Source: Hoyosella sp. YIM 151337
GTDB lineage: Bacteria > Actinomycetota > Actinomycetes > Mycobacteriales > Mycobacteriaceae
Assembly (NCBI RefSeq): GCF_026041215.1
Contig: NZ_JAPEIQ010000021.1
Location: forward strand, 1 to 64,000
Length of the DNA: 64,000 nucleotides
Reading direction: 5' to 3'
The position numbers and the translations under genes are program-made. Each line of letters opens with the position of its first letter. Position 1 is the stretch's first letter. Under the pieces are notes generated by a model that was not told where the DNA came from, made no database searches, and saw nothing but the letters and a program-made list of their open reading frames with translations. Below are positions 39,693 to 63,813 of the stretch, in pieces.

Positions 39693-41618
39693 TCAGGGAC
39701 TGGCGAGTGCAAGTGCGTCTGTCTGACCAGCGACTCCCGCCTCTTCCCTGACCTTCGCCACGTGCCGGCGATGGGCAAGGTACTGAGCCAGCAGCCCGAT
39801 CACGGTAATACCGAGCATCGTCGCAACCGCTGACGCGAAGCCGGGGCTGCCGTTGAACGCCGCGATCAGGCCATCACGGGTGTACGACATCGGCGCGATC
39901 GGGTGCAGTGCCCGCAATGGCCCGGGGATCGTTTCGAGCATCCAGACACCACCGAACGAGAACACTTGCAGCATCCACGCCGCGAGGGTGACGAGAGTGC
40001 CTGCCGCATAGCCGAAGATGCGGAACGCAGCGCCCGTGAGTGAGACGGACATCAAGGTCGCCAAGGCGACGACAACCATCACCTGGCTCAGGCTGGCCGG
40101 CGCGGGCGCCGGAGTCACGACGGACCACACCACTGTTCCGAGCACTGCCATCGCCGCGAGGCTGACCCCGGCTACGGCGAACAGTCGCCGAACGGGGCGC
40201 TTGGGGTGCGCACCGCCGGAAAACGCCGCGCCCCTTTCTTCACCCGACGCCCGGAACGACATCCACACCAGCAGCGCCACGAGAGCGGAAGACACCGATA
40301 GCAGCACCGGAACCGCGCCCGGCCCCAGCTTCGATGTTCCCGGAACGGTCTTGTCGGCGACATTGTTCGTGTCTAGCGCGACGGGTGTACTCACCAGCGA
40401 TGCCAGTTGGGCGCGTGCTGATTCGTCACCCAGGTCAGGTACGCGTTGCGCACCCGCGCCGAGGCCGTCCGCGAGTTGTCCAGCGCCGTCATCGAGCTGG
40501 CGAGCGCCGTCCTGCAACCGGGGAAGGTTCGATGAGAGTTCGCCAACGCCCGCCTCGATGCGTCCCAGACCATTAGAGAGGGTCCTCGCGCCCGTGGCGA
40601 GTTCCGCACCGCCCGCAGTGAGCGTCTCGACCCCCGACCGGTACTGCGCCGTGGGATCGTTGAGCTGCCGCGCAAGCTCCGCGCCACCGGCGTTGAGCTG
40701 AGCTATGCCGTCAAGCAGCTGCTCTACCTTGCCGAGCACGGCAGCACCTTCGCTGCCCACCGGGTCGGGAAGCACCGCAAGCTGGCCCTGCAACGCACGC
40801 ACTCGCCCAGCGAGCGTGCCGTCGGGGTCGACGGTGCCAGCAAGCGTGTTCAGTCCATCGGAGAGACGCTGTGCGCCATCGCCTAGCTCCCCGGTGCCGG
40901 TACGCAGCCGGACGAGCCCGTCAGCGAGCTGCTCGGCACCATCGGCCAAACGAGCACCACCGGCCGCAGCCTCGCTGACGCCGGGAGCGAGCTGGCCCGT
41001 TACCCCAGACGCAAGCTGGTCAACACCCCCTGATAGCTGACCAGTTCCGTCGGCGAGGCGGTCAGCCCCGTCCGCAGCGTCACGGATGCCACCGCCCAGA
41101 TCGTTCATGCCGGTCAAGACAGTGCCGACGGTGCGGCTCGACGTCGACTTCAAGACAGCAGCGTTCAGTGTCGCCATCACGCGAGTACCTACGGTTGACG
41201 CCATCGTCGTGTTGTTGTCGTTGTATGTGACTTTGATTGCCGCAGGTTCGGTGACCCCGCTCGACAGGCCCGCGAGAGTGCTGCTGAAGTTCTCCGGAAT
41301 CTCGACGATGAAGTAATAGTCTGCCGCTCTCAGTCCCTCAGCTGCCCGTTCCGCGTCGACAACTTGCCAATCCAGCGCACCGCCGTCGAGCAACGTGTGG
41401 ACGATGTCAGCGCCAGCGTGGATGGTGTTGTCACCAGTGCCTGCGGGCTGGTCGGCGTTGACGAGCGCGACCGGCAGATCTTTCAGCTTCTCGGTCGGGT
41501 TGTACATTGCCCACATGAAGAGGGCGGCGAACGCCAGCGGCAAGGTGATGCAGAGCGAAAGCGCAATTCGCATTAGCCGCGAGCGCTGCCAGCGCGAGAC
41601 GGGTCGGGACGAGTGCAT
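39693..41618 (-). CDS. YhgE/Pip-type membrane protein
   Basis: A 641-aa protein of ABC-2/YhgE-Pip architecture. One membrane helix is near the N-terminus (SLCITLPLAFAALFMWAMYN), with a periplasmic domain of about 400 residues and five or six C-terminal helices. The periplasmic part has a long series of short heptad-like repeats (LADGTGQLSGGVDQLASGV; LADGAEQLADGL; LGDGAQRLSDGL) typical of the family. Homologues act in phage reception, type VII-like export or envelope functions. ATG 41618 follows GGAG. The role here is unknown. Confidence 0.85.
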   Translation of the reverse strand: MHSSRPVSRWQRSRLMRIALSLCITLPLAFAALFMWAMYNPTEKLKDLPVALVNADQPAGTGDNTIHAGADIVHTLLDGGALDWQVVDAERAAEGLRAADYYFIVEIPENFSSTLAGLSSGVTEPAAIKVTYNDNNTTMASTVGTRVMATLNAAVLKSTSSRTVGTVLTGMNDLGGGIRDAADGADRLADGTGQLSGGVDQLASGVTGQLAPGVSEAAAGGARLADGAEQLADGLVRLRTGTGELGDGAQRLSDGLNTLAGTVDPDGTLAGRVRALQGQLAVLPDPVGSEGAAVLGKVEQLLDGIAQLNAGGAELARQLNDPTAQYRSGVETLTAGGAELATGARTLSNGLGRIEAGVGELSSNLPRLQDGARQLDDGAGQLADGLGAGAQRVPDLGDESARAQLASLVSTPVALDTNNVADKTVPGTSKLGPGAVPVLLSVSSALVALLVWMSFRASGEERGAAFSGGAHPKRPVRRLFAVAGVSLAAMAVLGTVVWSVVTPAPAPASLSQVMVVVALATLMSVSLTGAAFRIFGYAAGTLVTLAAWMLQVFSFGGVWMLETIPGPLRALHPIAPMSYTRDGLIAAFNGSPGFASAVATMLGITVIGLLAQYLAHRRHVAKVREEAGVAGQTDALALASP

Positions 41619-42062
41619 GAAACTACTCCAGTTGGTGGGGTCGGTGACCCTGCCCAGAGCCGACGGACTGTGACATGGGCGCATACCACCGCAGCGGCAT
41701 GATTCGGGTCATACAAAGCTTTCGCCCGAATGCCGCAAAAGACCATGGATGGCGTGCCAAACACGTACGCACCGAATTGTTGGGGATGACAAATAGCGAC
41801 TAACAACGAGTAAACATGCTCGGTGTGAATGACCTGATGACGCGCGACGACCGACCACAGCGCAGCGTCGCCCGATGCAGACAGTGCGTCGCGACGTGCC
41901 GATCTGCTTGAGCGATCTAGAAATGCTTATCGCCGGTACGGGCCGACGACGAACCTGCCGGTCACCTTCGCGGCACACTCAGCGATGGCGCCACGCGAGA
42001 GGAACTCGCCGAAGCATCGCGCAGGCGGCATTCGACGAGTTCAAAGCCTATGCCCCAGGAAC
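41619..42062. other. 444-bp gap, possibly with a decayed small gene
   Basis: No intact gene is evident. Between about 41840 and 42066 on the plus strand, protein-like fragments appear in different frames: ADLLERSRNAYRRYG, DGATREELAEASRR and AAFDEFKAYAPGT-stop. They could be pieces of one small gene broken by two or more frameshifts. The 200 bp nearest the YhgE gene hold its promoter but no recognisable element. Confidence 0.35.
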
Positions 42063-50242: not shown

Positions 50243-50923
50243 TCAATCGGTGAATCGGTACCCCATCCCGGGCTCGGTAAGCAGGTTCTTGGGGCGCGAC
50301 GGATCGGCTTCGAGCTTGCGGCGCAACTGCGCCATATACACGCGAAGGTAGTGAGTTTCGTTGTTGTACGACGGCCCCCACACTTCGCGCAGGATCTGTT
50401 TCTGCGTCACCAGCCGACCCTTGTTACGCACGAGCAGCCCAAGTATCGACCACTCCGTTGGTGTCAAATGCACGTCCTCGCCATTCTTTTTCACAAGGCG
50501 CGCACCCAGGTCGATGGAGAGGTCGCCAGCTGTGACGACGGCCTCCTGCTGCGGTGCCGAGTTCTGGCCCCGCCGCACGGCAGCGCGCAGGCGGGCCAGG
50601 AACTCGTCCATACCAAAAGGCTTGGTGACGTAGTCGTCTGCACCTGCGTCGAGTGCGGCAACCTTGTCTCCAGAGTCGGTACGGGCGGAAAGCACAACAA
50701 TCGGCACGGACGACCACCCGCGAATCCCGTGAATGACCTCTGTTCCATCGATATCGGGCAGACCGAGATCAAGGATCACCACGTCTGGCTTCTCTGACGC
50801 AACGGCGCGCAGTGCCGCTGAACCGTCGGACGCGGTCTTCACGGCGTAGCCGTGCGCAGCCAGACTGATGCGCAGTGCGCGAAGAATCTGGCGCTCATCG
50901 TCAACGACGAGGACGGTCGTCAT
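50243..50923 (-). CDS. kdpE: KdpE-like response regulator
   Basis: A 226-aa OmpR-type response regulator. The receiver domain has DDE near the N-terminus, the phosphoacceptor D52 in VVILDLGLPD and the conserved Lys in YVTKPFG. The winged helix carries LTPTEWSILGLLVRNKGRLV and YLRVYMAQLRRKLE, as in KdpE. ATG 50923 overlaps the kinase stop by four bases and gives the standard receiver start. It probably controls the adjacent potassium transporter. No kdpFABC operon is in the window, so the target may differ from the classical Kdp pump. Confidence 0.87.
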   Translation of the reverse strand: MTTVLVVDDERQILRALRISLAAHGYAVKTASDGSAALRAVASEKPDVVILDLGLPDIDGTEVIHGIRGWSSVPIVVLSARTDSGDKVAALDAGADDYVTKPFGMDEFLARLRAAVRRGQNSAPQQEAVVTAGDLSIDLGARLVKKNGEDVHLTPTEWSILGLLVRNKGRLVTQKQILREVWGPSYNNETHYLRVYMAQLRRKLEADPSRPKNLLTEPGMGYRFTD

Positions 50924-52377
50924 TCCGCCACCGCTTCCCGATAGTCGACGGCGGGAAGCACACACGTCACCGTGAGACCTCCGCCTGGTGTCTGCGAGGC
51001 ACTGATCGTGCCATTCATTGCTTCAATGAACCCCTTCGCCACCGACATTCCCAGGCCGATGCCAGTCGTCACGTTGCGGTCACCTAGACGCTGAAAAGGT
51101 GCGAATGCCGCCTGTTCGGTGCCCTGCACCAAGCCTGGCCCGTGATCGACCACGTCCAGCACCAGAGTCCCTGCCTGTTCCCGAGCCTGGAGGGTGACGT
51201 CAGCACTTCCGTGCCGCAGGGCGTTGTCGACCAGATTCGCGATAACCCGTTCAAGCAGACCGCCATCCGCTCGAACCTCCGGCAACCCCTCGGGAATAGC
51301 CACCTTCACATCGTCGCTGCCCGGCACGCTGCGCAATGCGCGCGCCACTGAATCTTCTATGTCAATAGCGCCGATGTTCGGCCGCACAGCACCAGTGACC
51401 AGACGCGATGAGTCGAGAAGATTGTCCACCAAGCCGCTGAGCAGAGAGATGGACTCGTCAGCAACGCTGAGGAGTTCACTCTTGTCGTCGGCGGACAATG
51501 TCAGCTGTTCGTCCCTGAGCGATCCCACCGCTGTCCTCAGCGAGGTCAAAGGGGTTCGCAGGTCGTGCCCGAGCGCTGACAGAAGCCCGTTGCGCAGTGC
51601 AGCGGCGTCAGCCTGGCGCTCCGCCTCTGCAGCAGTGGCCGCCATCCGCTGATGGCGCAGGGCCAGTACCGCCTGAAATCCTGCGGTCTCCAAGACTGCC
51701 CACTCGTCGCCAGCGAGCTCGCGGCCGCGCAGTATCAGTCGCACCCCGTCGCTCACCTGTACTGCCTGCACATCAACGGTCTTCGTGATCGCACTCGCTG
51801 GCCCCAGCGCGACAGCGGTCGTCTGCCAGCCGTGCTGACCGGCCTCTTCCAGCGCGACCTTTTCCAGCCCAAAGCTCTCGGCGATCTTTGCGAGCAGGCG
51901 ATTCGCAGGATTGTCCTCGAACAAGATGGTCCGTGCGAACGAGAAGAGCAGCGCGGCTTCTGTTCGCGCGCGTTCCGCTTCGGCGGCGCGAACAGCGGAT
52001 CTGTTGACGACGACGGCGACGAGCACTGCTACCGCCACCATGACGCTCAGGGTGATGATGTTGGCTGCGTCAGCGATGAAGGGGGTGTGAAACGGCTCGG
52101 TGAAGAAGAAATTGAGTAGCGCGGCACTGATCGCCACGGTCGCCAGAGCTGGCAGCAGGCCGCCAACCAGTGCAGCGACCACGATGCCGAGGAGAAAAGT
52201 CATTGCGATGTTCGCGAACGCCACATGCTCTTTAAGCGGTATGAACGCCAGCGTGAGCACAGCGGGCAGTACGACCGCCGCGAACCAGCCGCTGCGGCGC
52301 CGGAAATTCGACAGGGCGGATTGGCCCGTCCTCACTGGTCGCATCAGAACACTGCCTGGCTCATCAACGGCTGCCAT
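50920..52377 (-). CDS. KdpD-like sensor kinase lacking the N-terminal KdpD domains
   Basis: A 485-aa histidine kinase. It starts with four closely spaced helices (DUF4118-type: AAVVLPAVLTLAFIPL; IAMTFLLGIVVAALVGGLLP) and a GAF-like region. The phosphoacceptor is H271 in LGHDLRTPLTSL, and the ATPase boxes are NLVDNALRHGSA, VVDHGPGLV and GIGLGMSVAKGF. This equals the C-terminal half of KdpD; the usual cytosolic N-terminal Walker and USP domains, about 370 residues, are absent. The gene is 18 bp after the Trk-type transporter and overlaps the response regulator. Confidence 0.87.
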   Translation of the reverse strand: MAAVDEPGSVLMRPVRTGQSALSNFRRRSGWFAAVVLPAVLTLAFIPLKEHVAFANIAMTFLLGIVVAALVGGLLPALATVAISAALLNFFFTEPFHTPFIADAANIITLSVMVAVAVLVAVVVNRSAVRAAEAERARTEAALLFSFARTILFEDNPANRLLAKIAESFGLEKVALEEAGQHGWQTTAVALGPASAITKTVDVQAVQVSDGVRLILRGRELAGDEWAVLETAGFQAVLALRHQRMAATAAEAERQADAAALRNGLLSALGHDLRTPLTSLRTAVGSLRDEQLTLSADDKSELLSVADESISLLSGLVDNLLDSSRLVTGAVRPNIGAIDIEDSVARALRSVPGSDDVKVAIPEGLPEVRADGGLLERVIANLVDNALRHGSADVTLQAREQAGTLVLDVVDHGPGLVQGTEQAAFAPFQRLGDRNVTTGIGLGMSVAKGFIEAMNGTISASQTPGGGLTVTCVLPAVDYREAVAE

Positions 52378-52395
52378 CCCTCTAGCTTCGCAGCA

Positions 52396-53907
52396 TCAAC
52401 CCACGATCGGACGTTCCTCTGGCAGTTCATATCGGCGCGGCCGTTCCTGCAACGCGAGCGCGGAGGCCAGCATGATCGGACCCACCCGTCCGAGCAGCAT
52501 CAGGACTACTAGGACGAGATGCCCTGCCGCAGGCAGGTCAGCAGTGATTCCCATGGACAGCCCGACGGTTCCGAATGCGGAGATCGCCTCGAACAGAACG
52601 AGATCAACCTCGTGGTCGCTGAGTGCAAGCAGCGCGACGGTCGATCCGATGACAGCGGCAACTCCCAACAGCGCTACGGTGAGCGCCTGCCGCTGCACGG
52701 ATTCAGCGATCTTGCGCCCCATGACGTGGACTGTGGGCTGCCCGCGCAGTTCAGCATAAATGACGAAGCCAAGCAGGGCGAAGGTCGTAACCTTGATACC
52801 GCCTGCCGTGCCGGCACTCCCACCTCCGATGAACATCAGCGCATCGGTAATCAGGATCGTCTCCGGACTCATGTCACCGACTTCGAGGGAATTGAAGCCC
52901 ACCGTGCGCGGGGCCAGCCCCTGGAAGGCTCCCGCCAGGATCTTCTCACCGATGTTGAGTGGCCCCATTGTCGCTGGGTTCGTCCACTCGAAACCCATGA
53001 CCGCGACAATTCCCACCAGTGCGAGTACCGCGTGGGTGAGCACGGTGATCTTGGTGTGCACGGTCCAGCGCCGATTGGCTGACGCATGGTGCGAACGTGC
53101 TTCCCTCACCATCTGCCGGACGTACTTGCCGACCTCGAAGAGCACTGGGAAACCCAGCGCACCCAGCGTAAACGCAACCATCAGCGGCACCATGATGACG
53201 GGATCCCCAACAAACTGCATGACGCTATCGGCTTGGAGCGCGAAACCTGCGTTGTTGAACGCTGAAATGGCATGGAACAAAGCGAAACCCACGGCCGAGG
53301 GCAGAGAATCGGTATACATCGTGTAGTACCGCACGCCGAGGATCAATGCGGCGGCAAGCTCGATCAGCACACTCAGCCGTACGATACCGATGACTACGCG
53401 GCGAACCTCGCCCAGCCGCAGATTCTTCGTCTCGGTATGGGCAATGAGCTGCATTCGCATGCCCATGCGGCGCGCAACCAGTAGTCCCAGCAGCGACGCG
53501 AACGTCATGATGCCCAGGCCGCCGAGCTGGAAGAGACCCGCAATCACGGCCTGACCGAACACCGACCAGTAGGTTCCAGTATCGACGACGATCAATCCTG
53601 TGACACACACCGCGGAAGTAGCGGTGAACAGGGCTGAGACAGGATCCGTCCATTCACCCGAAGCCGATGATACGGGCAGCATCAGCAGCACGGTTCCGAC
53701 GAGGATCGCTCCCGTGAAGCCACCGACGACAACTCGCGCTGGATACTTTCCGAACGTCTTAACAGTTCGGCCGGCTACTCCGCGCGTCCTGTTGTAGAAC
53801 ACCGTTTGATCCGCCCCAAATTCTCGCCGCAGTCTTTCCTGGGCAGGCCCGTGTTCACCGGAGCCCGCAGGAGAAAGCTTGCCGCAGCGCTCATCTTTCG
53901 CAGCCAT
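52396..53907 (-). CDS. TrkH/KtrB-type potassium transporter
   Basis: A 503-aa potassium-translocating membrane protein with four pore repeats. The selectivity-filter glycines are in TSAVCVTGLIVV, AISAFNNAGFAL, APRTVGFNS and SAFGTVGLSMG. Basic cytosolic loops separate them. ATG 53907 gives the usual N-terminus; an open frame extends to ATG 54018, and neither start has a good ribosome-binding site, so the start is uncertain. It lies first in an operon with the KdpD/KdpE-like pair. The regulatory RCK partner (TrkA/KtrA) is not encoded here. Confidence 0.88.
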   Translation of the reverse strand: MAAKDERCGKLSPAGSGEHGPAQERLRREFGADQTVFYNRTRGVAGRTVKTFGKYPARVVVGGFTGAILVGTVLLMLPVSSASGEWTDPVSALFTATSAVCVTGLIVVDTGTYWSVFGQAVIAGLFQLGGLGIMTFASLLGLLVARRMGMRMQLIAHTETKNLRLGEVRRVVIGIVRLSVLIELAAALILGVRYYTMYTDSLPSAVGFALFHAISAFNNAGFALQADSVMQFVGDPVIMVPLMVAFTLGALGFPVLFEVGKYVRQMVREARSHHASANRRWTVHTKITVLTHAVLALVGIVAVMGFEWTNPATMGPLNIGEKILAGAFQGLAPRTVGFNSLEVGDMSPETILITDALMFIGGGSAGTAGGIKVTTFALLGFVIYAELRGQPTVHVMGRKIAESVQRQALTVALLGVAAVIGSTVALLALSDHEVDLVLFEAISAFGTVGLSMGITADLPAAGHLVLVVLMLLGRVGPIMLASALALQERPRRYELPEERPIVG

Positions 53908-54061
53908 CTGAAGGGCGGAATTGACGGGTTGTTGACGGCTGACGCTGGGGTTTTTACGCGTCCTTAGCGCCAGCGCAGCGGTGTGCAGCACGCCTTTACG
54001 GACGCAAATCCCGGTCATCGAGGCAGCTAATGCCTATACTTCCCCCAACCACGGAGGAGTG

Positions 54062-54124
54062 ATGAGGGGTGGATTTGCGCGATGCACGCACACGTCCACG
54101 ACCCGCCCGCTCGCCTTCCACTGA
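54062..54124 (+). CDS. Possible 20-codon leader ORF overlapping the NRPS start
   Basis: A 20-codon frame (MRGGFARCTHTSTTRPLAFH, then stop) starts three bases after GGAGGAG, which is too close for ordinary use of that site. It overlaps the NRPS start out of frame, its ATG lying 20 bp earlier. The same purine site is 22 bp from the NRPS ATG, too far. Either the leader is translated and couples to the NRPS, or it is incidental. Confidence 0.3.
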   Translation: MRGGFARCTHTSTTRPLAFH

Positions 54125-57100
54125 CGGCCGCCCAGCACGCGATCTGGGTGGCACAATCTCTCAGCCCTTCCGTACCGTTCTCCGTCGCAGTCTGGGCTGA
54201 CCTTTCCGGCCCGATCGACCCGGTCCGGCTCCGCGCAGCAACACTAGCGGCGCTGCGCAGCGCCGAGTCGCCGCTGCAGGTAATTCAGCCCGGTGACGAA
54301 GGCGTGTGGCAGGTCCCCGTTGCCTTCTTAGAAGACACCTTTGTCCAGCTCGATTTCGGCGGCGTCTCTGATCCAGGAGCGGCGGCGCGGGCTTGGATGC
54401 ATAGGGACCTGAACACCCCGGTTGATGTGACCGCGGACGGACTCTGCAGGGTTGCGCTCGCTACAGTCGGCCCGGACCGGCACTTCTGGTACGCAAGATT
54501 CCATCACATCCTGCTCGACGGCCACGGAGCCGCTCAGATCCTGCGCCACATAGCCGCCCGCTATAACGGCGAACACCCACCTGCGATGACGCCGCTGCAC
54601 GGCATCGTCACGTCGGACGCCGCGTATTCCGCGAGCACGCGACATGAGCGTGACCGTGCGTTCTGGGCACGATATGTGGAGTCATTTCCCGAGCCGCTCA
54701 CCCTCGGGTCCCCCGCAGCGCAGTGCAGCGCTGTGAACCACACCGCCGCAGCGCCGCTGCCTCCGGGCATATCCTCACACACCACCGCACTGGCCGCACT
54801 CACCGCTTACCTGGGGCGGGTGACCGGTCGCCAGGACGTCGTCGTTGGCTTGCCAGTATCCGCTCGGACCTCAGCCGTGCTGCGCAACGGGGCCGGGATG
54901 GTCGCGAATGTTGTACCCCTGCGCGTCGCCGTCGACCCGGCGTCTGCGCTTACGGAACACAGCAGGGTGCTGCACTCGGAACTGGGTCGTGTACTGCGAC
55001 ATCACCGATTCCCGCAAGCCGAGATCCACAGTCTGCTCGCGCGGCCCGAATACGGCAGAATGTTCGGTCCCGCCGTCAACCTACTGCGTACCGGGGACGT
55101 GGTGACACTTGGGCAGGCCCGCGGAAGCGCCCACATCCTCTCGACCGGACCCGTCGACGATGTCGCGATCAACCTGTGTCTGACGCCCGCTGGAGTGCGG
55201 GCGGAGTGGGAAACGAACCCGTACCGGCACTCTCAATCGGACACCGATGCGTGGTGTGCCGATTTCGCAGACTTCGCCGGGTTCTATGCAACACACGGAC
55301 GCGGCCGCACGCTCGGCACTGTCAGCCGAATCAGCGGGCGTCGCGCCGCGGCTCTGGCCAGGAGCGGACTCGGCGCGCCCGCCCGTCATGACACGACAGC
55401 GGACGTGATCGCTCAAATCGGACAGGTAGATCCAACGGCAATCGCCGTTGAGACGACACACGGCACACTCACCTACGGCCAGCTGCGCGATCACGCCAGG
55501 AAACTCGCAGACCGACTCGGACAAAACGGCGCGGGCCCCGGCGCCGTGGTCGCTTTGCACTTGCCCCGTTCACCCGAGTGGATTATCGCCATGCTCGCGG
55601 CATGGACTGCCGGGGCTGGCTACCTGTCGCTCAGCCCCGACGATGCGCCTGAATACACCGCGACAGTCGCGCGCGCAGCGGGCGTACACGTGACCGTCGG
55701 CCCCGGCCTTACGATCGGCACAGCGGTGCACACGCCGACGGCCGTGTCCCCCGCCGGCATCGCATGGGTGGTGACGACGTCCGGGACATCGGGACAACCC
55801 AAAACGGTCCGGGTGCCGCAGGCCGCCGCCATCAACACCGTCACGTGGTACCGCGACGAAGTGGGAATCACCGGGGCAGATCGGGTTTTGGTCGCCAGCG
55901 CACCGACCTTTGACCTTACACAGAAAAACATCTGGGCAGCACTCACCTGTGGTGCCACGCTCCTGCTCGCGGCTCCCGCGTTCGACCCCGCCGAGGTTGT
56001 GCGGCTGGCGGCAGCAAAGGCAGCGACGGTTCTGAACCTTGCCCCCTCAGCGCTGCGGGTCGTGCAGGAGGCCGATACTAGCCGCACGCTGCACCGGCTG
56101 CGCGTACTTATACTGGGCGGCGAGGCTCTGCATCTCGCTGAGGTTGCGCCGCTTCGCGCTTCCGGTGTGCGCGTTATCAATTCGTACGGCCCATCGGAGG
56201 CCGCGGACGTCGTGTGCGCTGCTGATGCCCCCATGAGCTGCTCTCCGCGCCCGCAGGCGAGCGTCCCCATCGGCCGTCCACTGCCTGGGGTGCGGCTCCA
56301 CGTCCTCGATTCAGCGTTGCACCCAGTGGGGTCCGGCCAGACCGGCGAACTGTATATCGGCGGTGTCTGTCTGGCCCATGGCTACACCGACGCGCCTCTC
56401 ACCGCGCAGCGTTTCATCGCGAACCCGTTCGGCAGTGGTGAACGTTTGTACCGCACTGGGGATTTGGCACGGTGGGGCGCGGATGGCCAGCTGGAGTTCC
56501 GTGGGCGCACTGATCTCCAGCTCAAGGTGCGCGGCGTGCGCGTCGATCCGGAAGCCATCGAATCATTGTTGCGCGGACAACCTGGTGTGGAAGACGCGGT
56601 AGTCGTCGTTCGTCCCCGCACTGCCGCCGTGGTTGCCTATGTGACTACAGGAGCCACCGCCGTAAATACCGATGCTCCCCAAAACCTGCTGGCCGATCAG
56701 CTTATTCGAACACTCTCGACTCAACTGCCGCGCCATATGGTTCCCTCGATAGTGGTACCGATGCGTGAATTTCCGCTGACACGCAGCGGAAAGATCGATC
56801 GCGCAGCACTTCCCGCACCGCCGTCAGCGCCCGCGCGGGCTCCTGAGACGCGCGCTGAACGTGTCCTCTGCGAGGCCGCAGCGGACGTGCTTGGACTCCA
56901 ATCCGTGAACCCAGGGGACGCCTTCTTCGTCCTCGGTGGCGACAGCATCCTCGCGCTGCAGTTAGTGGCGCGCGCCCGCTCCCTTGGCATCCTCATCACG
57001 ACGCGGGACGTTTTCGAGCAGCGCACGCTGGCGCGTATCGCGAGCGTATCCAGCTGCGTTGCGCCCGTACCCGGGCTCGCCGAGCTCCCAGGTGCTGGGA

Positions 57101-60100
57101 CCGGATGGGCTCCCCTCACCCCGATCATGAAGTGGCTGTTTGAGCGTGGCGGGCAAGCCGACCGCTGCACGCAGGCCGTACTGCTGCACGCGCCCTCCGA
57201 GTTGACCGCGACGACGCTCACGGCAGCGCTACGGACACTGCTCGATCATCACGACATCCTGCGGGCGACCATCACTGCGAACGGCATCCACATTCCTCCC
57301 TCCGGCACGCTGAGCGCGAAAAGCCTCGTCAAGGTAGTCGACTCCCACGCCCCTGGTACACCATTCTCGACCTGCGTCCACAGCGAATTGCATGACGCCG
57401 CGGCACGGCTGAACACGGAACGTGGCGTATTGCTGCAGGCCGTGTTGTTCACGAACGGCGAGCGAGACGGCGACAGCCACGTGTTGCTTGTCCTCCATCA
57501 TTTCGCCGTCGATGGAGTGTCGTGGCGCATCCTGATCCCGGATCTCGCTGCGGCCTGGCTAAGTACACAACATGCTGCGCCACCGCAGTTGCCACCAGCT
57601 GGCACCTCCTTCCGCCGCTGGGCACACGGTCTCGCACAAGGCGTGTCACATCGGCGCAGCGAAATCAGCGATTGGCGGTCAGTGATCAGCGATGACGGCT
57701 GGCACATCGGTCGTCGCCCTCTCGACCCCCGGATCGACACCTGTGACACGGTGGCACGACTGGAATTCACGCTCCCCCCGGAACTCACAGACCTCGCGCT
57801 GCGGGTAGCAGCCGAGTCGGTACACGGCACCGCTGAGGACGTCCTCATTGCCAGCCTGGCAATCGCGATCCTCTCCTGGCGGCGGCGCGGGCGCATCACA
57901 GTGATGGCTGAACGGCACGGACGTGACGAAAACGCGGTGCCCGGCGCTGATCTCAGCCGTACCGTTGGGTGGTTCACCTCGCTCGTCCCGGTAGTCGTCG
58001 AACTTGGTGCTATCGATGTCCGCGATGCCCTTCGGGGCGGCGAGGCCGCGGGTACCGCGCTCAAGCGGGTGAAAGAGCAGTTACGTGCGCACCACGGCAC
58101 CGGTATCGGCTACGGCATGCTGCGCTACCTGGCGGACGATACGGCGCTGGACGCGCCGCCGCCGCAGATACTCGTGAATCACCTCGGTCAACTCGGCCCG
58201 TTCACCCCCGGTGACTGGGCGCCTTCTTCCGCGGCGGGCGTTCTGCTCGCGACCACAGACCCCGCGAGTGCGGCGCCAGCCGCACTCGAAGTGACATCAT
58301 ATGTGGCTGTAGAACACTCGTTGCGGCAGTTGGTAATTCAGCTCGGCTATGTCACCACGCTGCTTAGCAGTGACGATGCTGAGCAGCTCGCGGCACACTG
58401 GCGATCCGCCCTTCACGGTATCGCGCTCTACGCCCAATCACCGGAGGCAGGCGGGCTTACGCCATCCGATGTCCTTGCCACCGTTACACAGACCGAACTA
58501 GACACCCTCTGCTCGGAATACCCTGGAACAGAAGATATCTGGCCGCTCACCCCGCTCCAGGAGGGCTTGCTCTTCCAAGCGCAGCTCGCCGGTGAGGAAG
58601 CTGACCCGTACGTCGTACAGGTCATCCTCGAGATCGGGGCCACCCCCGATCCCCTGCATCTCGAACGAGCATTCACCGTGTTGCTCGAAAGGCACCCCCA
58701 ACTCGGGGTATCGTTCGCGACAACCGCCAGCGGGCACCCTGTTCAAATCATCGCTGGCGGGGCTCGCGTTCCAGTACACGTGGTGGATCTGGCGGCCGGA
58801 CATGATGCCGCCGAGCCTGAGACAGCATTACGACGGGCTATTGATGCAGATAGAGCCACTCCGTTCAATCTGGCTAAGGGCCCGCCCATCAGAGTGACTT
58901 TGATCCGGTCCGGCAGCCGCACGGGCGGTCAGGACCGTCACTGTCTGGTTCTGACCCACCATCACATCATCTTGGACGGGTGGTCGACACCGCTATACCT
59001 GCGGGAGGTGTTCGCTGCGTGCCACGCGGGGCGCAACACCACCGTGCCGCCGCTACGGAGATACCTCGAGTGGCTGGATACGCGCGACCGCGAAACCTCA
59101 CTCCGGGCCTGGCGCGGGGCGCTCCGGGACATCGAATCACCAACGTTGCTCGCTGCTGAGCCGGCGACGGCGACGCGCAGCGAGCTGCGACACACCTTCG
59201 ATGCCACCACCACGGCTGCGGTGAGTGCCCTCGCGCGGCGGTGCTGCGTCACCGTAAGTACGGTTGTACAGGCCGCCTGGGCCTTCGCACTGGCAGCCGA
59301 AACTGGTGAGCAGACTGTCGTTTTCGGTACGGCTGTGTCAGGCCGGCCACCGTCAGTGAGTGGCGTTGAGGAGATGATCGGACTTCTTATCAACACTGTT
59401 CCCGTTGCGCTGCGCATCCATCCGGGCGAGACGTTCGCCGAGCTGCTCACTCGCTTTCAGAAAGAACAAGCAAACCTGCTCGAGCACCACCACACCAGCC
59501 TTGCCGAAATCCACTCGATTGCGCCTGCCGCACGGTTCGATTCGCTGCTCGTGTTCGAGTCGTACCCCGTTGAACCGGCGCAGCCCTTCGCCGCAGCGCC
59601 GTGGCGCGTCAACTCGGCGGATGTGCGCGACGGATCGCACTACCCGTTCACGCTCGTGACCTTCACTGGTCAGCAGTTGGCGCTGGAGGCCCGCTTCGAT
59701 GAGGGATCCGTGACCCGCGCGCGAGCCCAGCGACTGGTGCAGCGCGTCGCCCGGCTGCTGGAAAGCGCTGACAACCTCGACGATCAGCTCGTGGGTGCCT
59801 TCGATGTTTGTTCCACCGAAACGGCTCATCTCAAGCCAGTTCGCGGCGCTGACGGTACGCCGCCCGTACCGTTAGCGCACCTATTCGGTGCGGCCGTCGC
59901 ACAGCACGCGGACCGCATCGCGATCGTCGACGGCGCCCGAACACTGACGTACCAGGAACTCGACGAGTGGTCGACGCGACTCGCGCGCTGCCTGCAGGCC
60001 CGCGGTGCCGGTCCAGAAGTGGTTGTAGCCATTGCCGTACCGCGCTCCGCCGAGTACGTGGCCGCGATGCTCGCGGTCACGAAGACCGGCGCGGCGTTCC

Positions 60101-62970
60101 TGCCGGTTGACCCTCACTACCCCCAGGCTCGGATCACGATGCTGCTCGAGGACTCTGGCGCCGCACTGGGCATCACCATGGCCGCGCAGCACACGCTACT
60201 TGTGGGCCGCGCCGAGTGGATGGTGCTTGATTCACCCGTCGTCGAGCACGAGTCACAGGATCAGAACACCGGCGCGCTGCCCGTCGCTACCCACCCCGAT
60301 AGTGCGGCATACGTCATCTACACATCCGGATCGACAGGCACTCCGAAAGGCGTTGTTGTCACGCACCGCGGGCTGGCGAGCTTCACACAAGAACAGTTCG
60401 AACGCTACGACATGCAGAGCGACTCCCGGATCCTGCATTTCGCGTCACCGAGTTTCGACGCGTCCATCCTGGAATTTCTGCTGGCATTAGGAGCTGGCGC
60501 GACGCTGGTGATCGCGCCCGAAGGTATCGCTGGTGGCGCGGAGCTCACACAACTCCTGCTAGCTCAGCGCGTCACACATGCGTTTCTCACGCCGGGAGTC
60601 CTTGAGACACTCGGCGGGTCTGAAGCGAGCGCAGACCTCTCGTCTCTTCAGACACTCATCGCTGGCGGCGAGCCCGTTCCAGCACAGATAGTGACCGACT
60701 GGTCCTGCGGGCGCCGGTTCTTCAACGGTTACGGACCCACCGAAACCACGATCATGGCAACAATTTCGGATGCGCTGTGGGTCAGCGGTGTGCCCGTGAT
60801 CGGCCCACCAGTACGCGGCGCGTCCGTCGCTGTACTGGACTCAGCACTGCGACCGGTACCGGAAGGGGTCCCGGGTGAGCTCTACATCATGGGGGCAGGC
60901 CTAGCACGGGGTTACCACGCCCGATCCGGCCTCACCGCCACCCGTTTCATCGCAAGTACCTGTGGACAGCCAGGCGAGCGCATGTACCGAACCGGCGATC
61001 GGGGCATCTGGCTGCGTGATTCGGACGGACAGCTGACGTTGCAGCACATCGGCCGCACCGATGCTCAGGTGAAGCTGCGTGGCTTCCGTATCGAACTCGG
61101 TGAAGTGGATGGCCATTTGCGGGAACACCCGGCGGTTCGCTCCGCGGCGACAGTGCTCGCCACCGGTCCTGACGGCACGGACTTTCTCGCGTCCTATGTC
61201 GTCACGAGCGACAGCCGCTGCGACGCGGAAGTCCTCAGGCGTTTCCTCCGCCAACGTGTACCGTCCCACCTCGTACCCGCCGCTATCAGCATTCTCGACG
61301 AACTGCCCCTCACCGCGAACGGCAAGGTCGACCGCCAGCGGCTGCCCAGCCCTGCTGCCGAAAAACCGGCAGGCGGCGCGACCGCGCCACGCAATGCGGC
61401 TGAGGCGGCCGTGGCCAACGCGTTCGAAAGAGTCCTTCTGCGCGCCGTGCCGGGCGTCGAATGTGAATTTTTTGACCTCGGCGGTAATTCGCTGTCTGCC
61501 ACAAGGGTCATCGCGCAGGTAAATGACGCCCTTCGGGTCCAGCTCGGCGTCCGCGACGTTTTCGACAATCCCACCGTCGCGGCGCTTGCCGCGCGAGCCA
61601 CTGCCAGCCAGACGGGCACCCCGAACGCCGACACTTCGGGCGGCGGTGGTCCCGAAAACACACGCCCCGCCCATATTCCGCTCGCACCGTCACAGCAGCG
61701 CATCTGGTTCGCTAACCGGCTCGACGCGAACTCCCCGGCTTACAACGTGGCGTTCACGCTGACACTGACCGGTGACGCAGACAGTCTTGACCTCGCCGCG
61801 CTCCACACTGCTCTCACGGATCTCTGTGCCCGGCACGATGTGCTGCGCACCATCTACCCGGACACGCCCAGCGGACCCACACAGCACGTTCTTCCGCCCA
61901 CACCACCGCGCCTTGAAGTCGTCACCGTGGGGACTGCCGAGCTCGAAGAGCTTCGCGACTCGGCCGTAAACCGCGGCTTCGATATCAGCCGTGCCGCGCC
62001 CTTCCGGGCGGTCCTGTTTGACACGGGAGATCCGGGAGTATGGGTATTGCTGATTGTGGGCCATCACATCGCCATCGACGGCGCGTCGCTTGCGCCGCTG
62101 GCCCGCGACCTCATCACTGCCTACGTGGCACGCCGAGCGGGGAAGGAGCCCGCTTTCCCAACGCTGCCACGACAATTCATCGACTACGCGCTGTGGCACC
62201 GCCGCATGCTGGGTTCACCCGCTGATCCGAGCAGCCTCGCTGCTCGCCAACTCGCCTTCTGGACGCGCACCCTCGACGGATACACACCACGACCGTTGCT
62301 CCCCGAAACTGCCACCGGGGCATCCACACGCGCCGAAATCGTCGAATTCGCCATCGGTGCAGCCGTGTGTGACAACATCTCAGCACTTGCACGCGCAACG
62401 GGTACCTCGCCGTTCATGGTGCTGCACGCGACGCTCGCCCTTCTGCTCGCCCGGGTCAGCGGCCAGCACGACATTGTCATCGCCACTCCTGTGCACGGGC
62501 GTGGCGGCCCCGAGTTCGACGACCTAGCAGGGATGTTCGTCAACACGGTCGCGCTCCGCAGCCGTATAGCCCCCTCGGGCACATTCCGTGATGTCCTGAG
62601 TGACACACGAGCGGCCGCGCTAGCCGCGTTCGACAACGCGGACGTCCCGTTTGACACCGTGGTGAAGGAATGCAGACTGTCCCAAACTCGGTTCGCTGAC
62701 GTCATGCTGACTCTGAACAACACCGGACCAGTGGACATATCGCTGCCGGGGCTCACCGTGACTGCGCAGCCTGCGGCAGTCGCGGCGGTGAAGAATGGTG
62801 TGACGATCGAGGTGACTGAAGAGCATTCGGCCACGGGTGACGTCCGCGCTCTCGCGGTGCGCGTAATTTACGACGCTTCCCGATTCCACGCGGCTGCGAT
62901 GGCGCGCTTCGCGCAACGTTACCAGCGGATGCTGCGAACGGTGGCCGCAGAGGCTGGCTCAGCGGGATAG
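54082..62970 (+). CDS. Non-ribosomal peptide synthetase, C-A-T-E-C-A-T-C
   Basis: A 2,962-aa NRPS. C1 (HHxxxDG at 141-147) is followed by A1 (about 450-925; TSGTSGQPKTV, YRTGDLARW), T1 (Ser955 in LGGDS) and an epimerisation domain (HHxxxDGVSW at 1139; VGWFTS). Next come C2 (H1627-H1628), A2 (about 1925-2410; YTSGSTGTPKGV), T2 (Ser2470 in LGGNS) and terminal C3 (H2661). All active sites are intact. It would join two residues, the first as the D-form, onto something presented to C1. The 10-residue codes read by eye are DLKNIGSDVK (A1) and DALFIGGIMK (A2, hydrophobic residue likely); both are tentative. There is no thioesterase, and no MbtH or loading gene nearby. Confidence 0.9.
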   Translation: MHAHVHDPPARLPLTAAQHAIWVAQSLSPSVPFSVAVWADLSGPIDPVRLRAATLAALRSAESPLQVIQPGDEGVWQVPVAFLEDTFVQLDFGGVSDPGAAARAWMHRDLNTPVDVTADGLCRVALATVGPDRHFWYARFHHILLDGHGAAQILRHIAARYNGEHPPAMTPLHGIVTSDAAYSASTRHERDRAFWARYVESFPEPLTLGSPAAQCSAVNHTAAAPLPPGISSHTTALAALTAYLGRVTGRQDVVVGLPVSARTSAVLRNGAGMVANVVPLRVAVDPASALTEHSRVLHSELGRVLRHHRFPQAEIHSLLARPEYGRMFGPAVNLLRTGDVVTLGQARGSAHILSTGPVDDVAINLCLTPAGVRAEWETNPYRHSQSDTDAWCADFADFAGFYATHGRGRTLGTVSRISGRRAAALARSGLGAPARHDTTADVIAQIGQVDPTAIAVETTHGTLTYGQLRDHARKLADRLGQNGAGPGAVVALHLPRSPEWIIAMLAAWTAGAGYLSLSPDDAPEYTATVARAAGVHVTVGPGLTIGTAVHTPTAVSPAGIAWVVTTSGTSGQPKTVRVPQAAAINTVTWYRDEVGITGADRVLVASAPTFDLTQKNIWAALTCGATLLLAAPAFDPAEVVRLAAAKAATVLNLAPSALRVVQEADTSRTLHRLRVLILGGEALHLAEVAPLRASGVRVINSYGPSEAADVVCAADAPMSCSPRPQASVPIGRPLPGVRLHVLDSALHPVGSGQTGELYIGGVCLAHGYTDAPLTAQRFIANPFGSGERLYRTGDLARWGADGQLEFRGRTDLQLKVRGVRVDPEAIESLLRGQPGVEDAVVVVRPRTAAVVAYVTTGATAVNTDAPQNLLADQLIRTLSTQLPRHMVPSIVVPMREFPLTRSGKIDRAALPAPPSAPARAPETRAERVLCEAAADVLGLQSVNPGDAFFVLGGDSILALQLVARARSLGILITTRDVFEQRTLARIASVSSCVAPVPGLAELPGAGTGWAPLTPIMKWLFERGGQADRCTQAVLLHAPSELTATTLTAALRTLLDHHDILRATITANGIHIPPSGTLSAKSLVKVVDSHAPGTPFSTCVHSELHDAAARLNTERGVLLQAVLFTNGERDGDSHVLLVLHHFAVDGVSWRILIPDLAAAWLSTQHAAPPQLPPAGTSFRRWAHGLAQGVSHRRSEISDWRSVISDDGWHIGRRPLDPRIDTCDTVARLEFTLPPELTDLALRVAAESVHGTAEDVLIASLAIAILSWRRRGRITVMAERHGRDENAVPGADLSRTVGWFTSLVPVVVELGAIDVRDALRGGEAAGTALKRVKEQLRAHHGTGIGYGMLRYLADDTALDAPPPQILVNHLGQLGPFTPGDWAPSSAAGVLLATTDPASAAPAALEVTSYVAVEHSLRQLVIQLGYVTTLLSSDDAEQLAAHWRSALHGIALYAQSPEAGGLTPSDVLATVTQTELDTLCSEYPGTEDIWPLTPLQEGLLFQAQLAGEEADPYVVQVILEIGATPDPLHLERAFTVLLERHPQLGVSFATTASGHPVQIIAGGARVPVHVVDLAAGHDAAEPETALRRAIDADRATPFNLAKGPPIRVTLIRSGSRTGGQDRHCLVLTHHHIILDGWSTPLYLREVFAACHAGRNTTVPPLRRYLEWLDTRDRETSLRAWRGALRDIESPTLLAAEPATATRSELRHTFDATTTAAVSALARRCCVTVSTVVQAAWAFALAAETGEQTVVFGTAVSGRPPSVSGVEEMIGLLINTVPVALRIHPGETFAELLTRFQKEQANLLEHHHTSLAEIHSIAPAARFDSLLVFESYPVEPAQPFAAAPWRVNSADVRDGSHYPFTLVTFTGQQLALEARFDEGSVTRARAQRLVQRVARLLESADNLDDQLVGAFDVCSTETAHLKPVRGADGTPPVPLAHLFGAAVAQHADRIAIVDGARTLTYQELDEWSTRLARCLQARGAGPEVVVAIAVPRSAEYVAAMLAVTKTGAAFLPVDPHYPQARITMLLEDSGAALGITMAAQHTLLVGRAEWMVLDSPVVEHESQDQNTGALPVATHPDSAAYVIYTSGSTGTPKGVVVTHRGLASFTQEQFERYDMQSDSRILHFASPSFDASILEFLLALGAGATLVIAPEGIAGGAELTQLLLAQRVTHAFLTPGVLETLGGSEASADLSSLQTLIAGGEPVPAQIVTDWSCGRRFFNGYGPTETTIMATISDALWVSGVPVIGPPVRGASVAVLDSALRPVPEGVPGELYIMGAGLARGYHARSGLTATRFIASTCGQPGERMYRTGDRGIWLRDSDGQLTLQHIGRTDAQVKLRGFRIELGEVDGHLREHPAVRSAATVLATGPDGTDFLASYVVTSDSRCDAEVLRRFLRQRVPSHLVPAAISILDELPLTANGKVDRQRLPSPAAEKPAGGATAPRNAAEAAVANAFERVLLRAVPGVECEFFDLGGNSLSATRVIAQVNDALRVQLGVRDVFDNPTVAALAARATASQTGTPNADTSGGGGPENTRPAHIPLAPSQQRIWFANRLDANSPAYNVAFTLTLTGDADSLDLAALHTALTDLCARHDVLRTIYPDTPSGPTQHVLPPTPPRLEVVTVGTAELEELRDSAVNRGFDISRAAPFRAVLFDTGDPGVWVLLIVGHHIAIDGASLAPLARDLITAYVARRAGKEPAFPTLPRQFIDYALWHRRMLGSPADPSSLAARQLAFWTRTLDGYTPRPLLPETATGASTRAEIVEFAIGAAVCDNISALARATGTSPFMVLHATLALLLARVSGQHDIVIATPVHGRGGPEFDDLAGMFVNTVALRSRIAPSGTFRDVLSDTRAAALAAFDNADVPFDTVVKECRLSQTRFADVMLTLNNTGPVDISLPGLTVTAQPAAVAAVKNGVTIEVTEEHSATGDVRALAVRVIYDASRFHAAAMARFAQRYQRMLRTVAAEAGSAG

Positions 62971-63813
62971 CCGACTCTCGATTGCTTCCATCCGGGCATT
63001 CATGCTGCGCAACAGGTCGAGCATTTCCTCGCGCTCCTCGTGCGCGATCTTGTCTGCTTTCGCACGTTCGGTGCGCTGTTCCATTTCGTGCACCTCTTGT
63101 GTCGCACTGACGATGATGGCGATGAAGAGGTTCAGCACCATGAAACTCGAAATCAGAATGAAGGGCACGAAATAGACCCACGCGTACGGGAACTCTGTCA
63201 TCACCGGTCGCGCGATACCCATGGACCAGCTTTCCAGGGTCATCACTTGGAAAAGGCTGTAGATGCTGCGCCCAAGCGTGCCGAACCACTCGGGGAATCG
63301 CTCACCGAACAGCTCCGTGCCCATCACGCCGAAGATGTAGAACATCATGAGCAGCAACGCGGCGGACCAGCCGATTCCCGGCATCGCCTGCATCAGCGAT
63401 TCCACCAGCATGCGCAGTCGTTTTACCGTCGACAGCAAGCGCAGCACACGCAAAATGCGCAGTGTGCGGAGGATAGCGAGCGGCCCGGACGCGGGAATCA
63501 GCGATATCGCGATGATGAGAAAGTCGAAGATGTTCCAGCCGGATTTGAAGAATCGCGGACCGAACGCCACGAGCTTAATGAGTATCTCGATGACGAAAAC
63601 AGCAAGGATCGACTGGTTGAGTGCCATGAGAATAGACCCGGCCGCCTCGCGTGCCGAGTCCGAGGTTTCGATCCCCAAGATGACAGCATTGATAAGAATC
63701 AGGGCAGTAATAATTCGCCGGGCTGTCTGGGACTCGATGCCCTCACCGAGTCGGACGCGCCACCCGGGTCCACCAGGCTGCATCACTGTCCGGTTCTCCG
63801 TCTGTACTGCCAT
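62959..63813 (-). CDS. Bacterial voltage-gated sodium channel (NaChBac-like)
   Basis: A 284-aa six-helix channel subunit. S4 (about 114-135) has arginines every third residue (R116, R119, R122, R125). The pore helix is followed by TLESWS at 192-197, close to the NaChBac filter TLESWAS, which favours sodium. S6 is LISSFMVLNLFIAIIVSA, with a C-terminal coiled coil (EMEQRTERAKADKI; LLRSMNARMEAIESRL). One subunit would form a homotetramer. Its 3' end overlaps the convergent NRPS by 12 bp. The start at ATG 63813 has no strong ribosome-binding site. Confidence 0.88.
   Translation of the reverse strand: MAVQTENRTVMQPGGPGWRVRLGEGIESQTARRIITALILINAVILGIETSDSAREAAGSILMALNQSILAVFVIEILIKLVAFGPRFFKSGWNIFDFLIIAISLIPASGPLAILRTLRILRVLRLLSTVKRLRMLVESLMQAMPGIGWSAALLLMMFYIFGVMGTELFGERFPEWFGTLGRSIYSLFQVMTLESWSMGIARPVMTEFPYAWVYFVPFILISSFMVLNLFIAIIVSATQEVHEMEQRTERAKADKIAHEEREEMLDLLRSMNARMEAIESRLSR

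Follow-up and report, generated by a model that had tools for sequence, protein, structure and literature searches.

Most nonribosomal peptide synthetases (NRPSs) of Rhodococcus are described as starting with a C-starter domain (PMC5550956), and the genome paper of A. subflavus mentions NRPS in a legend (PMC3743902). The starter condensation (C) domain of RzmA from P. rhizoxinica (RzmA-Cs; PDB 7C1H and 7C1K) is described as accepting acyl-CoA (PMC7804268). C domains that close a line by taking an amine, with no normal chain extension, have also been described: putrescine is added by the C domain of glidonin module 13, and a C-terminal C domain is a proposed route for malleobactins and bicornutin A (PMC10587159). 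Nearer to the gene discussed here is a line in its own genome, that of Hoyosella sp. YIM 151337 (4.9 Mb, 48 contigs). This line, on contig C34, consists of two subunits of 6757 and 5015 aa and starts with Cs-A(DLKNFGSDVK)-T-E-C-A(DALFVGGIMK)-T-C, after which a serine-type code follows. The same start is common to H. subflava and two Lolliginicoccus-like genomes. The corresponding lines measure 6761 and 5630 aa in H. subflava, which we take the comparison genome very likely to be, and 6778 and 6775 aa in G047 and G022, respectively, both of which appear to be Lolliginicoccus-like.

The window, i.e., the whole stretch of 64,000 nucleotides that was analysed, contains an NRPS gene at 54082-62970 (+ strand, ATG start, 2962 aa), here called the orphan. 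Pfam recognised four Condensation, two AMP-binding, two PP-binding and two AMP-binding_C stretches in the protein, and detected neither a thioesterase nor a reductase nor any additional domain; the order of the motifs, together with home-built profiles, gave the domain order C-A-T-E-C-A-T-C, so that the anatomy claimed in the preliminary description, including the lack of a thioesterase, was confirmed. The motif series is far beyond chance: HHILLDG141 in C1 (54112-55341), adenylation motifs at residues 563-808 in A1 (55408-56820), LGGDSI948 in T1 (FFVLGGDSI; 56857-57051), HHFAVDG1139 with GYGMLR1343 and VNHLG in the epimerisation (E) domain (57106-58422), HHIILDG1627 in C2 (58537-59769), residues 2078-2324 in A2 (59884-61353), LGGNSL2463 in T2 (FFDLGGNSL; 61402-61599) and HHIAIDG2661 in C3 (61672-62943), all on the + strand. 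We consider it probable, although by no means certain, that the orphan is the starter subunit, truncated at its 3' end, of a lipopeptide-type synthetase as found in related Mycobacteriales; it stands alone at a site that is NRPS-free in two congeners.

The orphan and modules 1-2 of the C34 line have the same eight-domain order, and their adenylation codes are identical at 18 of 20 positions (9 of 10 in each A domain). Ten residues per A domain, located with the help of the motifs and taken to be the code positions, gave DLKNIGSDVK for A1 and DALFIGGIMK for A2. The string DLKNFGSDVK is reported as homoserine by antiSMASH 4.1.0 and not by 5.1 (PMC7524897), and DLKNVGSDVK and DLKNLGTDVK appear in a listing for homoserine or its lactone (PMC12283262). 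From this homoserine-type code, homoserine is the predicted substrate of A1. Because a literature search on six A2-like code strings returned no substrate in print, a hydrophobic residue at A2 is something that we only infer. In trees, A1 fell into an 11-member DLKN clade (support 0.95), and A2 paired with module 2 of a second Lolliginicoccus-like line (support 0.95). The order Cs-A(Hse)-T-E-C-A(DALFxGGIMK)-T-C is thus common to the C34-type lines and the orphan; the C34-type lines, however, go on with a Ser code and further modules, whereas the orphan ends 8 aa after C3, and the C34 line, the only one of its type checked in this respect, carries on its second subunit a thioesterase that the orphan lacks. 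A1 and A2 of the orphan are 43% and 52% identical to those of the C34 line (42-52% against C34-type lines overall), compared with 65-68% (A1) and 75-78% (A2) between the Hoyosella C34-type lines and the two Lolliginicoccus-like ones (67-68% and 77-78% for the C34 line itself), and the orphan is therefore not a recent C34 copy. By these comparisons it is an old relative of the C34-type line, and a homologue of its starter part only rather than a full C34-type member.

The class names starter, L-C-L and D-C-L are applied here to the C domains of the orphan as we understand them. Against solved structures, C1 scored 176 bits with RzmA-Cs, 142 with ObiF1, 139 with CDA-C1 and 115 with EntF, all of which we take to be starter C domains, and 44 with TycC and 38 with VibH; RzmA is the best solved match, although its acyl length is not transferable to C1 of the orphan. 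C1 also lay in a 26-member starter clade (support 0.967) that includes the starter domains of the C34 and C45 lines, and outside this clade stood the starter C domain of the siderophore-type line on contig C19. Judged by sequence, C1 is a starter-type condensation domain, as in Cs-initiated lipopeptide-type NRPS starter subunits, and the acyl uptake claimed earlier for C1 is supported by the solved-structure ranking; that the donor would be a fatty acyl group follows from the C1 type only. A DHB siderophore starter was considered and rejected: the C19 line has four modules and is accompanied by isochorismate-synthase-like, SDR and aryl-ligase-like genes, the starter of that line does not group with C1, and neither an aryl starter nor DHB genes were found near the orphan, which accordingly does not belong to the DHB siderophore NRPSs.

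The active site of E domains is described as the His of HHxxxDG and the Glu of EGHGRE (PMC7551626), and the orphan E domain keeps both residues. Its EGHGRE motif reads ERHGRD and its NYLG motif reads NHLG, with Y in all 13 other E domains of the set. The D-residue of the preliminary description is therefore upheld, although two other E positions are unusual. C2 grouped by identity and in the tree with C domains that follow E domains (12 members, support 0.93), i.e., with the D-C-L type, and a second residue after the D-residue, which had likewise been claimed, is supported. In the proposed mechanism, C1 would take a fatty acyl group and join it to L-homoserine activated by A1, the E domain would invert the homoserine of the acyl-Hse, and C2, as a D-donor type, would couple the acyl-D-Hse with the A2-activated residue. 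At most, the resulting acyl-D-Hse-X chain would end as a thioester on T2, without an assigned acceptor.

That chain would next meet C3, for which a special releasing or transferring role had been proposed. C3 had 46 solved matches, namely 5u89 (228 bits), PCP-C didomain structures (about 170), Txo2 (165) and RzmA-Cs (41) among them, with VibH absent from the 46; the best matches are ones that we take to be of the elongation type. In the tree, which contained no named amine-type reference, C3 fell within a clade (support 0.86) whose 41 members are C domains from internal positions or split modules; it had a single partner there, L176 (support 0.87), and the nodes below had weak support. C3 resembles an ordinary elongation domain, and the special role was not borne out. 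The plainer possibility that the preliminary description had allowed for, ordinary C1 and C3 domains with a partner synthetase encoded elsewhere, fits C3, but C1 is of the starter type and no dedicated partner was found. C3 would originally have been the elongation C domain of module 3 and should pass the chain to an A-T pair.

An unlikely alternative is that C3 works as a release domain, joining acyl-D-Hse-X to a small nucleophile, for instance a free putrescine-like amine, to give a capped lipodipeptide. C3 aligns over its length, its HHIAIDG motif and the reading frame are intact, and the amine-taking terminal C domains of glidonin module 13, malleobactins and bicornutin A are published precedents (PMC10587159) that, as C3 of the orphan does, occupy a line end without normal chain extension; glidonin, however, has C-A*-T-TE at its line end, whereas the orphan ends in C3. 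The position of C3 inside the elongation clade argues against such release, as does the lack of a recognisable amine-supply gene in the 20 flanking ORFs that were scanned, and the short tail and borrowed stop codon described below suggest loss instead.

In related genomes, subunits regularly end in C or C-A*. Fourteen subunits in related loci end in C, C-A*, C-T or C-A*-T: that of C34, its H. subflava counterpart, three Lolliginicoccus-like subunits, and L085, L086, L087, L088, L200, L201, L203, L204 and L208; L199, L202 and the Lolliginicoccus-like G047:C24, which are cut by a contig or sequence edge, were left out of this count. An A-first subunit was observed after 5 of the 14 (C34, H. subflava, one Lolliginicoccus-like, L203 and L204). 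For two of the Lolliginicoccus-like subunits and for L087, the edge of the sequence examined is no more than 2.4 kb away, no NRPS frame was present within 3.5-21.5 kb downstream of L085, L086, L088 and L208, and the next frame after L200 and L201 has T and C and no A hit. The Mycobacteriales starter subunits L085, L086, L087, L203 and L204 consist, like the orphan, of a starter C domain, two modules and a terminal C domain. Unlike the orphan, they have no E domain in module 1 and extend for 132-325 aa after the last C domain (132 in L203), and L203 and L204 are directly followed by an A-first subunit, which is not so for the orphan. A conserved split module was also observed, in which the first subunit ends in C-A (degenerate, no carrier) and the second begins with A-T (L043/L044, which is the C34 line; L197/L198; L191/L192); it occurs in two Hoyosella genomes and one Lolliginicoccus-like genome, with a similar arrangement in other family members, and its degenerate A domain may be a docking element.

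Counted stop to stop, the 14 subunits have 132-542 aa after their last C domain, compared with 8 in the orphan, in which C3 ends at residue 2954 and the protein at residue 2962. This difference is one of the grounds for reading the orphan as truncated. A short tail is not by itself abnormal, however: the two stand-alone C proteins of the same genome have 121 and 23 residues after the C domain, the latter in the C19:288 kb protein. The tail also bears on the suggestion, quite doubtful in our view, that the orphan acts in trans as an alternative starter for the 5015-aa C34 second subunit, with C3 passing on acyl-D-Hse-X and three modules being skipped. That subunit begins directly with A-T and is presumably fed by the terminal C-A* of the 6757-aa subunit, and the orphan offers the same type of chain start as the C34 line. 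Yet the natural partner carries, behind its last C domain, a C-terminal tail of 398 aa (a degenerate A) that is missing from the orphan, C3 is not particularly close to that last C domain (40.6% identity, as with several other domains), and the genes lie on different contigs.

The site itself provides further evidence. On the left, a trkH-like K+ transporter gene (52396-54018, - strand) flanks the orphan, and nucleotide homology to H. subflava ends near 53758, with a weaker protein match reaching further up; on the right, an ion channel gene (62959-63813, - strand), syntenic in congeners, encodes a protein that is complete to its stop codon and 86% identical to that of H. altamirensis and 81% to that of H. 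rhizosphaerae. The gene order acc (a 1819-aa biotin-carboxylase-like protein, so named from its sequence), response regulator, kinase, trkH, channel, M20 peptidase, permease is common to this genome and H. subflava, and H. altamirensis has the same order without regulator, kinase and trkH. The interval at 50243-54018 of the window, holding the two-component pair and trkH between acc and channel in the former two genomes and absent in H. altamirensis, thus appears to be variable. Only 118 bp separate trkH from the channel gene in H. subflava, where YIM 151337 has an NRPS-holding interval instead; no NRPS is present at the same locus in H. subflava or H. altamirensis, and tblastn with the orphan (E 1e-20) gave no hit in the five channel loci tested.

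At the right junction, the last stretch of the orphan (62944-62970) encodes the 8-aa tail and a TAG stop, and the last 12 bases of the frame (TCA GCG GGA TAG, 62959-62970) are the antisense of the last codons of the channel gene, so that the stop codon of the orphan lies inside its neighbour. The homology of C3 runs through its last helix and stops in the would-be linker to A, both placed, as we assume, from the known fold. A misjoin in an NRPS region at 62959-62970, i.e., an assembly artefact, seems very improbable: the assembly is in 48 contigs, but both flanks are in the order of the congeners, and read confusion is unlikely since the A domains of the orphan are at most 52% identical to other A domains compared. 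A transposon or site-specific insertion was rejected, as no shared word of at least 9 bases, direct or inverted, was found between 53701-54120 and 62901-63060, and the left border had no homology to the upstream regions of the other NRPS loci compared. Foreign base composition was rejected as well, with a GC content of 0.65 in the orphan and 0.63-0.65 in the other NRPS lines, and so was a defence role, with no PADLOC match.

The physical isolation of the gene, a point of the preliminary description, was borne out. No NRPS tailoring gene was recognisable by Pfam among 20 neighbouring ORFs (10 in the window and 10 in the next 20 kb), and on the 296,553-base contig the only NRPS C domains, and the only NRPS A domains above the cutoff, are those of the orphan. 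The ABC-2 type membrane protein at 39693-41684 of the window is also present at this locus in the NRPS-free H. subflava. Elsewhere, an iron alcohol dehydrogenase gene (L042:6935-8227, + strand) is 98.8% identical to that of H. altamirensis, with neighbours at 80-91%, which suggests a possible recent transfer.

Isolation in the genome as a whole is a different matter. There is no partner NRPS on the contig, but three further NRPS lines are present on contigs C34, C45 and C19, and a thioesterase ends the C34 and C45 lines, the two line ends that were scanned. The earlier statement that no MbtH is nearby is correct, and the sole MbtH of the genome is on another contig (C25:80056), not at any NRPS line; two ABC half-transporter genes lie within about 4 kb of it. 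All 31 C hits of the genome belong to the C34, C45 and C19 lines, the orphan or two stand-alone C proteins (C45:334 kb and C19:288 kb), and all 22 over-cutoff A hits belong to these lines, the orphan or a Pls/PosA-type protein (C3:155 kb); those inspected among 43 below-cutoff A hits were one at C21, the C19 aryl ligase and the fragments into which the degenerate A domain of C34 is split. The sole multi-module A-first NRPS is the 5015-aa C34 second subunit, which is already paired. On these 31 C and 22 over-cutoff A hits, a separate partner synthetase for the orphan was rejected, and none of them represents a free 3' remainder of the gene. Two of the other proteins deserve mention in their own right: the Pls/PosA-family synthetase on contig C3 (L169:4819-8772, - strand; TIGR02353, 692 bits; code DAESIGTVVK), and a stand-alone 643-aa C-domain protein on C45 (L051:7973-9904, - strand) beside two UvrD/PD-(D/E)XK helicase-nuclease genes, of which 611-aa frames matching the C1 query more weakly in both other Hoyosella genomes may be relatives.

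Searches beyond this genome used samples that overlap and in which few candidates were scored per genome. C1-A1 (E 1e-120) gave 6 matches in a sample of 396 genomes of the phylum, and with two candidates scored per genome and congeners not among the matches, the best non-self match, at 574 bits, was the genome's own C34 line, and the next genome reached 455. With C1 alone (E 1e-60), 106 of 201 family genomes matched, with best identities of 38-42%; no match above 36% was found in two congener genomes, and a C1 pattern scan of genome contigs, which finds close relatives only, returned 27 pattern matches, none confirmed. A1 (E 1e-95) matched 3 of 397 order genomes, including its own, at 47% at best, level with the C34 line, and C3 (E 1e-98) matched no other genome of the 397. 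Among 72,556 plasmid records, 2869 matched the complete orphan protein, none of them at 60% identity or more, and the 15 matches listed were 33-39% identical. An intact parent line did not turn up in the genome samples or plasmid records searched.

Another idea, which we consider rather unlikely, is that the orphan is a complete, independently acquired NRPS of an unsampled lineage with a separate partner or release enzyme. Long branches (0.67-1.12) for its six catalytic domains and the absence of a close relative in any sample are consistent with it. Its base composition matches that of the genome, however, and C2, A1 and A2 group with Hoyosella and Lolliginicoccus-like lines, a weak argument as the E and post-E C sets hold only these two groups; E itself groups with Hoyosella/Lolliginicoccus-like domains in one analysis and with a siderophore E domain in the tree. 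In a conservation test, which gave a mixed picture, we counted how many of the positions shared by 90% or more of the remaining domains in a set are kept in the orphan, after dropping A domains below 300 bits or 440 residues, C domains below 150 bits or 380 residues and T domains below 55 residues. Ranked from the bottom, A1 (76 of 91 positions) was second of 75, the lowest being the aryl ligase, E (68/85) was second of 14 and C2 (13/17) was first of 89; A2 (85/89) ranked 17, C3 (16/17) 24 and C1 (17/17) 70, and T1 (8/9) ranked 17 of 69 and T2 (8/8) 56. That A1, E and C2 are among the most deviant of their sets fits relaxed constraint, and it also fits a distant lineage.

Truncation of a starter subunit, our preferred explanation, is suggested by several lines of evidence: the 8-aa tail with a stop codon supplied by the channel gene, the copying of the order and codes of C34 modules 1-2 by a protein whose C3 looks like an elongation domain, and a congener locus without NRPS in combination with the lack of a free 3' fragment in the genome. 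In the simplest reading, the gene would have lost its 3' part on joining this spot, and the frame now ends in the neighbour. Since the A-T pair is missing, as is everything further down the line, the thioesterase included, the product would at best be slowly hydrolysed off, or the gene would make nothing. Several observations count against truncation. The 2962-codon frame is intact, and all eight domains have core motifs and coding-type base composition, so the gene may still be under selection; these features argue for recent truncation or continuing use. A-domain identity to C34 is low and no intact parent was found, the best identities of C1 (38%) and C3 (42%) are to domains outside Hoyosella, and short convergent overlaps can arise without truncation.

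A further reading, which we regard as improbable, is that the orphan is a compact stand-alone synthetase repurposed after losing its line. It would make an N-acyl-D-homoserinyl-X lipodipeptide, which C3 would release either to a free amine or by way of the hydroxyl group of homoserine, as a small signal- or surfactant-like molecule. Positive evidence for a new release chemistry of C3 was not obtained, and the most likely reading is that of an orphaned fragment rather than a novel enzyme type. If active, it would be a minimal natural maker of acyl-D-homoserinyl dipeptides and would allow a test of an ordinary elongation C domain acting as a release domain. If truncated, it would represent a case of an assembly line breaking at an inter-module point with an intact starter unit left behind, and a warning against inferring new release chemistry from nothing more than a terminal C domain.
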